NCBI GenBank assembly: GCA_026225255.1
Contig: JAMFSJ010000002.1
Location: 1-64,000 of the forward strand
Length of the DNA: 64,000 nucleotides
Direction of reading: 5' to 3'
From: Methylacidimicrobium fagopyrum
GTDB taxonomy: Bacteria > Verrucomicrobiota > Verrucomicrobiia > Limisphaerales > UBA11358
Positions 23,909-25,522 of this stretch are shown piece after piece. How positions within the stretch are numbered: the first letter of the stretch is position 1; every line of letters starts with the position of its first letter. The translations under genes were made by a program, and so were the position numbers. A model generated the notes under the pieces. It ran no database searches and was not told the DNA's origin. It worked only from the letters and a program-made list of their open reading frames with translations.

Positions 23909-24038
23909 AAATCAATCCCTTTGGTTTGTCCGGCGGGAATTCGCACGAACGGCTGACATGATAGCAGAGAAAATTTATTTTGCCATGAACCGTTTTTTGA
24001 TCCTTCTCATCGTTCTCCTCTCATCCTCATCGTCATCG

Positions 24039-24095
24039 TCATCGTCATCGTCATCCTCACTTTTCTGCCGAGGGAGAGGATGACGATGACGATGA
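24039..24095. repeat. 20-bp perfect stem built from a (TCATCG)n tract
   Basis: tcatcgtcatcgtcatcctc (24039-24058) and its exact reverse complement gaggatgacgatgacgatga (24076-24095), 17-nt loop. Confidence 0.8.
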
Positions 24096-24121
24096 GGAGG
24101 AGGAGGATAGGGGGAGGCGAT

Positions 24122-25372
24122 TTAAGCCGTCACCCGCAAACGTTCTTCGCTGAACAGTTCCACGCCATTTTCCGCGAGCCGTTGTTGCAGTTCGGTGATG
24201 TGGCCGCGATCGCGCGTTTCCACGGTGCACAACACATGCACACGCGACAGATCCGGTCCGGCGAACGTGCGATTGTGCACGATTTCTGTGACGTTCGCGC
24301 CCGCCGCCGCGAGCACGCCTGCGAGATGCGCGAGCGCGCCGGGACGATCACTGAGCAATACGTCGAAACGATAGATGCGTCCGTCCGCTGCGAGACCGCG
24401 TTCGATCACGCGGCTGTGCGCGAGCGGGTCAATGTTGCCGCCGCTGAGGAGTAACACGACTTTACCTCCAGCAAGTTCAGGCAAACTGCCACTTAGCAAA
24501 GCTGCGAGTCCCGCTGCGCCCGCGCCTTCGATGATGCATTTTTCCAATTCCGCCAACCGCAAGATCGCCAGCGCCAACGTTTCTTCGCTCACGGCGACCA
24601 GGCGATGCGTCAGCGGCTGCATGATGGCGAGCGTGTTGGAACCCGCTTCGGCAACCGCGAGACCATCGGCCACGGTGGCGCGAATCGGAATGCGCACCGG
24701 CGCGCCAGCGGCGAGTCCGGCGGCAAAACACGCGGCACTCGCGGGTTCGACACCGATGATTTGTAACTGCGGTTTCAGCGCGTGAAAAACGGTCGCCATG
24801 CCGGCCAACAATCCGCCGCCGCCCACGGGAATGATGACCGCGTCGGCGTCGGGCACTTGTTCGAGAATTTCAAACGCCATCGTGCCTTGCCCGGCGATGA
24901 CTTGCGGATCGTTGAAGGGATGGATGTAAGTCAGCTTGCGTTCCTCGGCGAGACGACCGGCTTCGCTACGCGCTTCGTCGTAAGTGTCGCCGTGCAGAAT
25001 CACGGTCGCGCCGAATTGCCGGCAACGCGCGACTTTTACCAACGGCGCAAAACGCGGCATCACGACGGTGACCGGAATGCCGAGTAGTCGTCCGTGCCAA
25101 GACAGACCGAGCGCGTGATTGCCCGCCGAGGCCGCGATGACGCCGAGTTTGGCGTGTTCCGGCGTCAATTGCGCCAAGGCATTGCGCGCGCCGCGTTCCT
25201 TGAAACTTCCGGTGCGTTGGAGAAATTCCTGCTTGCAGAAAACGTGGGCTCCAGTCAGTTCGCTCAATGCGGCGGATTCCACGCACGGCGTGCGGGCGAT
25301 GACGCCGTTCAAGCGCGAACGCGCGGTCATGATTTCGGCCAGCGAAACAGTATTGTCAGATTGATTTTTCAT
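24122..25372 (-). CDS. ilvA: Threonine ammonia-lyase with C-terminal ACT-like domain
   Basis: QEFLQRTGSFKERGARNAL PLP lysine, VIIPVGGGGLLAGMA, VVLLLSGGNIDP; C-terminal RPGALAHLAGVLAAAGANVTEIVHNR. Confidence 0.95.
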   Translation of the reverse strand: MKNQSDNTVSLAEIMTARSRLNGVIARTPCVESAALSELTGAHVFCKQEFLQRTGSFKERGARNALAQLTPEHAKLGVIAASAGNHALGLSWHGRLLGIPVTVVMPRFAPLVKVARCRQFGATVILHGDTYDEARSEAGRLAEERKLTYIHPFNDPQVIAGQGTMAFEILEQVPDADAVIIPVGGGGLLAGMATVFHALKPQLQIIGVEPASAACFAAGLAAGAPVRIPIRATVADGLAVAEAGSNTLAIMQPLTHRLVAVSEETLALAILRLAELEKCIIEGAGAAGLAALLSGSLPELAGGKVVLLLSGGNIDPLAHSRVIERGLAADGRIYRFDVLLSDRPGALAHLAGVLAAAGANVTEIVHNRTFAGPDLSRVHVLCTVETRDRGHITELQQRLAENGVELFSEERLRVTA

Positions 25373-25392
25373 GGAGTGATTTAAGCAAATAA

Positions 25393-25420
25393 AAACCCCG
25401 GGCGCTCAGGCTCGGGGTTT
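25393..25420 (-). terminator. Attenuator terminator upstream of ilvA
   Basis: Minus strand AAACCCCG-AGCCTGAGCGCC-CGGGGTTT followed by TTATTT, ~20 nt before the ilvA ATG. Confidence 0.85.
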
Positions 25421-25453
25421 GAGAGATTAGAGTTGCGATGAATCGTTGCGCGT

Positions 25454-25522
25454 CTATCCCTGCCCCAAGCCGGGGCTAATAATGATCGCGAAGATCATGC
25501 GGGAGGTGGCGGAACAAATCAT
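25454..25522 (-). CDS. Isoleucine-rich leader peptide of ilvA (MICSATSRMIFAIIISPGLGQG)
   Basis: In-frame ATG 25522 (AAAGGA 3 nt upstream) or ATG 25498; codons ATC TTC GCG ATC ATT ATT; TAG at 25454-25456; followed by terminator and ilvA. Confidence 0.8.
   Translation of the reverse strand: MICSATSRMIFAIIISPGLGQG

Follow-up and report, generated by a model that had tools for sequence, protein, structure and literature searches.

Putative isoleucine-sensing transcription attenuator upstream of ilvA in Methylacidimicrobium fagopyrum and related Verrucomicrobiota

The ilvA gene of Methylacidimicrobium fagopyrum is preceded by a short isoleucine-rich open reading frame, an antiterminator and a competing intrinsic terminator. 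Judging from its sequence and from folding models, we consider it very probable that this element is a ribosome-mediated transcription attenuator, which would sense charged tRNA-Ile and set the transcription of ilvA. The same element occurs upstream of ilvA in all 17 relatives whose IlvA protein is at least 80% identical. Our analysis started from a 64,000-nucleotide stretch of the genome (the window; all positions refer to it) and from an original prediction that proposed an isoleucine attenuator at this place.

Anatomy of the ilvA leader

The leader ORF is located between a small gene and ilvA, all three on the minus strand (Table 1). Re-reading the sequence confirmed the position and the isoleucine content first claimed for this predicted ORF, in which an Ala-Ile-Ile-Ile (AIII) run supplies codons for the end product of the pathway. 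The product of ilvA contains a Pfam PALP domain and one ACT domain. Apparently, ilvA forms a single-gene transcription unit, because the next gene on the same strand encodes an OsmC-like protein and lies beyond a repeat-rich hairpin. Just 3' of ilvA (24000-24120) we observed an imperfect inverted repeat with TCATCG/CGATGA units, which includes a 6-nt tandem repeat at 24021-24059 and is a possible end-of-gene hairpin.

Table 1. Features of the ilvA leader region in the window.
Feature	Position	Strand	Details
Small upstream gene	25934-25584	minus	without Pfam match
Predicted promoter	-35 25559-25554, -10 25536-25531	minus	TTGACG-N17-TATCAA, consensus match 9/12
Leader peptide ORF	25522-25454	minus	MICSATSRMIFAIIISPGLGQG and stop; 22 codons, 5 Ile
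Other Ile codons of the leader ORF	25519-25517 and 25495-25493	minus	
Control codons	25478..25486	minus	ATC ATT ATT, Ile13-15; conserved Ile run
Segment 1	25476-25472	minus	GCCCC; pairs with GGGGC 25466-25462
Segment 2, antiterminator 5' arm	25453..25471	minus	GGCTTGGGG 25471-25463, AGGGAT 25461-25456, AGA 25455-25453
Leader stop codon	25456-25454	minus	within segment 2
Hairpin capping the antiterminator	25435..25451	minus	GCG 25451-25449 with CGC 25437-25435
Antiterminator 3' arm	25409..25431	minus	TCT 25431-25429, ATCTCT 25427-25422, CCCCGAGCC 25417-25409 (segment 3)
2:3 core helix	25471-25463 with 25417-25409	minus	GGCTTGGGG with CCCCGAGCC, 9 bp, one U-G
2:3 extension	25461-25456 with 25427-25422; 25455-25453 with 25431-25429	minus	around GCG:CGC
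Intrinsic terminator 3:4	25391..25420	minus	25420-25410 with 25403-25393; U-tract 25395-25391
3:4 core helix	25420-25413 with 25400-25393	minus	AAACCCCG with CGGGGTTT
ilvA, threonine ammonia-lyase	24122..25372	minus	416 aa, ATG at 25372; TIGR01127 above cut-off

The three pairings initially proposed, 1:2, 2:3 and 3:4, are all present at the expected positions, and two of them are longer than anticipated. Beyond the 9 bp of the 2:3 core, AGGGAUAGA pairs with UCU/AUCUCU; the antiterminator is thus a long interrupted helix composed of GGCUUGGGG:CCCCGAGCC, AGGGAU:AUCUCU and AGA:UCU with a GCG:CGC cap. It shares the 5' arm of the terminator, so that the two structures exclude each other. The terminator gains two pairs past an A.C mismatch; it lies between the leader ORF and ilvA, and its U-tract ends about 20 nt ahead of the ilvA start codon, as had been predicted. 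The element's terminator was not detected by a generic terminator scan, probably owing to the A.C mismatch and the A-U pairs entering the U-tract, and for that reason the element also escaped a pattern scan of the window for III-containing ORFs with perfect hairpins. A conserved hairpin, AUGAUC-N5-GAUCAU, is made up of the Met-Ile..Ala-Ile codons within the ORF (25498-25482, minus strand); one relative has a double change in it and another a wobble pair. It could be a codon by-product or a pause signal.

The match of the putative sigma-70-like promoter to the consensus has a P of 0.004 against shuffles. In the window, 8 nt separate its -10 box from the leader ATG; across the relatives the distance is 8-11 nt, and TTGAC is found at the same upstream place in 16 of the 16 leaders with enough sequence. 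A generic promoter scan detected no promoter at the leader. The promoter position in these 16 loci predicts a leader mRNA that is leaderless or nearly so, with a start about 0-4 nt from the leader ATG.

Conservation and covariation

The 17 ilvA loci of the close set, with 80-92% protein identity of IlvA, belong to Verrucomicrobiota of subdivision 3 / Pedosphaera-like, Chthoniobacter, Verrucomicrobium and Prosthecobacter; the cultivable Chthoniobacter flavus is among the carriers. The element has a common layout, i.e. the promoter, an ORF of 19-23 codons with the Ile run, a conserved pairing domain and the terminator before ilvA; a counterpart of the leader ORF was also identified at one further locus. 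The presence of the leader-ilvA unit is patchy, with about 80% identity across orders, and horizontal spread is a possibility.

Statistics on the single sequence are modest: P is about 0.005 for at least 5 Ile among 21 residues at the composition of ilvA, and the 141-nt leader folds with z = -2.6 compared to dinucleotide shuffles. What is decisive is the comparison with the relatives. Isoleucine accounts for 20% of the residues in 25 ilvA leaders (Val 3.7%, Leu 6.0%), compared to 5.5% in the IlvA protein. The original prediction was to be judged by the conservation of the isoleucine codons and by compensatory changes in segments 1-4, and it withstood this comparison. Nearly all relatives retain the Ile run, despite changes between ATC, ATT, ATG and GTC (variants ATC ATT ATT, ATT ATT ATT, ATC ATG ATT and GTC ATT ATT); in one leader, a single Ile is left in the run. 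Compensatory changes occur as well: both alternative pairings show covariation among segments 2, 3 and 4. In helix 1:2, the 17 close relatives have changes in one of the two arms only.

The complementarity between the leader and the terminator 5' arm exceeds the shuffle mean in 18 of 18 leaders (mean z -2.4), which are related and not independent. The alignment of the 17 sequences (A3) was scored against shuffles, which leave the relatedness in, so that the following figures are counts and not probabilities. In the terminator conformation, 93.8% of the cells are paired and 18 show double changes (shuffles 6.6, slid versions at most 5); in the antiterminator, the values are 87.4% and 13 (shuffles 5.7, slid versions at most 8), and none of 500 shuffles scored as high. 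Helix 3:4 by itself is paired in 98% of the cells of these sequences, with double changes at four pairs, and the GCG:CGC cap in 92%, including changes from C-G to U-A. A second alignment (A4) comprises 34 full elements, one weaker match and two reverse-strand fragments that reach the terminator only; it was built with a model that does not contain the antiterminator. Here, the 2:3 helix is paired in 83.1% of the cells with 24 double changes (shuffles 12.1; 1 of 500 as high). The positions of segment 3 covary with both partners: A/G at column 176 changes together with U/C at column 197 in the terminator and with U/C at column 44 in the antiterminator. Such columns are the signature of a switch. 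Of the three helices, 1:2 (GCCCC:GGGGC) has the least support; it is paired in 89% of the cells of A3 with no double change, and double changes appear only in the wider, model-fitted A4.

Folding of the stalled and terminating states

A stalled ribosome was represented in the folding models by forcing the bases under it to be unpaired, with footprint edges set to E. coli values from general knowledge. The original prediction held that a stall at the Ile codons would mask segment 1 and favor the 2:3 pairing. The models agree: with Ile13 in the A site, the window RNA has a P(2:3) of 0.98 and a P(3:4) of 0.02, while P(3:4) is about 1.0 when the ribosome is at the stop codon or absent. In these constrained foldings, the control codons and the stop codon are placed such that a ribosome would free or mask segment 2, respectively.

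What is more challenging is the behavior of the full-length RNA in the relatives. At equilibrium, the terminator is favored in most of them even when the ribosome is stalled; hence, the switch must be kinetic and decided during transcription, which is also how classical attenuators work. The full-length equilibrium test, which did not separate stalled from unstalled states in most relatives, was dropped in favor of folding the nascent RNA before the synthesis of segment 4. In the nascent RNA of 34 leaders, the mean probability that segment 3 is sequestered by upstream sequence is 0.75 in the stalled state and falls to 0.25 when the ribosome sits on the stop codon; stalled controls with a shuffled spacer reach 0.54.

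Distribution in Verrucomicrobiota

A covariance model of the element (R1) was searched in 394 Verrucomicrobiota genomes. Clear matches precede ilvA at three loci in Verrucomicrobiales and short ilvA copies in seven Opitutaceae. The leader-controlled copies of these Opitutaceae match the query only up to about residue 330 and hence seem to be without the ACT domain, unlike their leader-less paralogs, which match over the full length. Leader-less ilvA paralogs with 44-58% identity exist in the same and in other genomes, which indicates that the element follows particular ilvA lineages. Matches below about 35 bits were inspected, and none lies upstream of ilv genes.

Six further matches in Opitutaceae (38-48 bits) precede cimA, again with an Ile-rich small ORF and a terminator. 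The encoded citramalate synthase is the alternative source of 2-oxobutyrate and the other entry enzyme for isoleucine synthesis; for one of the six loci, the identity of the protein is given by a score above the TIGR00977 cut-off. A weaker case, the weaker match in A4, is found in a genome of the window's order, where LIASIIIGHPGR with its stop codon and a terminator precede cimA. Reading by eye upstream of cimA in the seven Opitutaceae with an ilvA leader revealed no Ile leader. Conversely, among the six Opitutaceae with a cimA leader, a search at E 1e-50 found no ilvA relative in four; the remaining two possess ilvA relatives without a model match. Three cimA genes of Verrucomicrobiales have a different Ile-rich small ORF upstream (of the MASQPAIFGIRIIIGLLCA type, followed by a stop codon), with possible hairpins and no clear U-tract terminator.

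The genome of the window contains two more candidate leaders of this architecture, with different sequences and with Val or Leu codons. Upstream of ilvB, a Val-rich leader (MLKNVSQAVILLVVVVSDAVGAC, then stop) is followed by a terminator; an Rfam search of this leader gave no match. The ilvB leader is widespread: among 21 relatives, a Val-rich ORF was detected in 15 and a terminator in 20. Upstream of a leuA-like gene, a Leu-rich leader (VKQNLNLLLTNALLTSAAVGF, then stop) is combined with a terminator formed by CCCACTGCC and GGCGGTGGGTTTTTT. Both leaders act like attenuators in the nascent-RNA folding test. With these two, the codon matches the pathway three times. End-product control predicts just this assignment: Ile at the Ile-specific enzyme, Val at the shared acetolactate synthase and Leu at the leuA-like gene.

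Discussion

According to the proposed mechanism, transcription would begin at or just upstream of the leader ATG. With ample Ile-tRNA, the ribosome would reach the stop codon and cover segment 2, so that the 3:4 terminator would halt RNA polymerase about 20 nt short of ilvA. With scarce Ile-tRNA, the ribosome would wait at the AIII run and cover segment 1, leaving segment 2 free; the long 2:3 antiterminator could then form before segment 4 is synthesized, and ilvA would be transcribed. The stalling, the response to isoleucine and the size of its effect are what we infer here.

By analogy, the element would share its mode of action, a textbook mechanism, with the enteric attenuators of ilv and trp. 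The attenuator of the E. coli ilvGMEDA operon (ilvL) has a leader peptide rich in the amino acids of the pathway; it senses Ile, Val and Leu and has five genes, ilvA among them, under its control. Pathway residues in the leader, an exclusive antiterminator and terminator, and, by prediction here, control of ilvA are common to both systems – we claim a likeness of layout, not sequence homology – whereas in our case Ile dominates and ilvA stands alone. In Firmicutes, T-box elements upstream of ilv genes sense tRNA charging and act by termination. They, too, link tRNA charging to isoleucine synthesis, but they bind the tRNA directly and have no leader peptide, and no T-box match was obtained here.

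Similar in form are the leaderless amino-acid leader peptides of Streptomyces lividans, ilvL, leuL and trpL, with short ORFs, control codons and competing hairpins; some leaders of this species control single genes, trpE and trpS. Unlike the ilvA leader, ilvL precedes ilvBHC and contains few Ile codons, and the portions of that study on which we rely describe no ilvA or cimA case (PMC8079986). The RNA of Sinorhizobium meliloti trpL starts at the leader ATG, as is predicted here, and forms a stall-dependent antiterminator, but it uses Trp codons and its target is trpE(G) (PMC7298713).

The trpL example also bears on the alternative that survives best, namely that the attenuator works as described and that the RNA left by termination, or the leader peptide of 22 residues, acts in trans as well. 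Trans functions are reported for Sinorhizobium rnTrpL/peTrpL, and the predicted near-leaderless start resembles rnTrpL, whose 5' end is the trpL ATG (PMC7298713). We judge such an additional role very unlikely for the ilvA leader: apart from the Ile run and the stretch that segment 2 encodes, the peptide sequence varies freely between relatives, with no sign of selection for a function in trans.

Still less likely is a riboswitch, T-box or RNA-binding protein that drives the same terminator and antiterminator in place of the translation of Ile codons. The stop-codon region and beyond (GGGGCAGGGAUAGACGCG...) is indeed conserved more than a bare stem requires, but this is just where the antiterminator arm and the stop codon lie, and the Ile run and the ORF are retained while codons change. 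Moreover, the window and eight other leader-bearing loci match no Rfam family, T-box included, at gathering score, and a relaxed Rfam search of the leader yielded matches at chance level only. An ordinary intergenic terminator of the small upstream gene next to a chance ORF, with ilvA served by its own downstream promoter or by constitutive readthrough, would fit the frequency of terminators between same-strand genes and the modest single-sequence statistics, but it is exceedingly improbable given that the element holds its position before ilvA in 17 loci, that the predicted promoter falls between the upstream gene and the leader ORF, and that ORF, antiterminator and terminator have been conserved as a set and show covariation.

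As read from the sequences, the attenuator proposed here is a putative phylum-level extension of a known type, together with the ilvA/cimA parallel. According to a survey from 2010, which itself added Firmicutes, leader-peptide attenuators had until then been known in Proteobacteria and Actinobacteria alone (PMC2965389). In the open full-text literature we found no leader-peptide attenuator for Verrucomicrobiota, nothing relevant on citramalate synthase with a leader peptide, and no description of the Val-type ilvB and Leu-type leuA leaders of this genome; this search covers open papers only and leaves the novelty unproven. We lean towards the broader view that Verrucomicrobiota use near-leaderless attenuators of the Ile, Val and Leu types, and that the Ile type is joined to either ilvA or cimA, which encode unrelated enzymes; in each of the 13 Opitutaceae genomes that we inspected, it was seen at one of the two genes and not at both. 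Common descent or convergence may account for the leaders of ilvA and cimA.

For the little-studied phylum Verrucomicrobiota, the element is a clear candidate amino-acid sensor, and it points to the biosynthetic threonine deaminase among paralogs. With ilvA or cimA under one type of switch, the two genes are a natural pair for following the movement of an RNA switch between non-homologous genes of a pathway.
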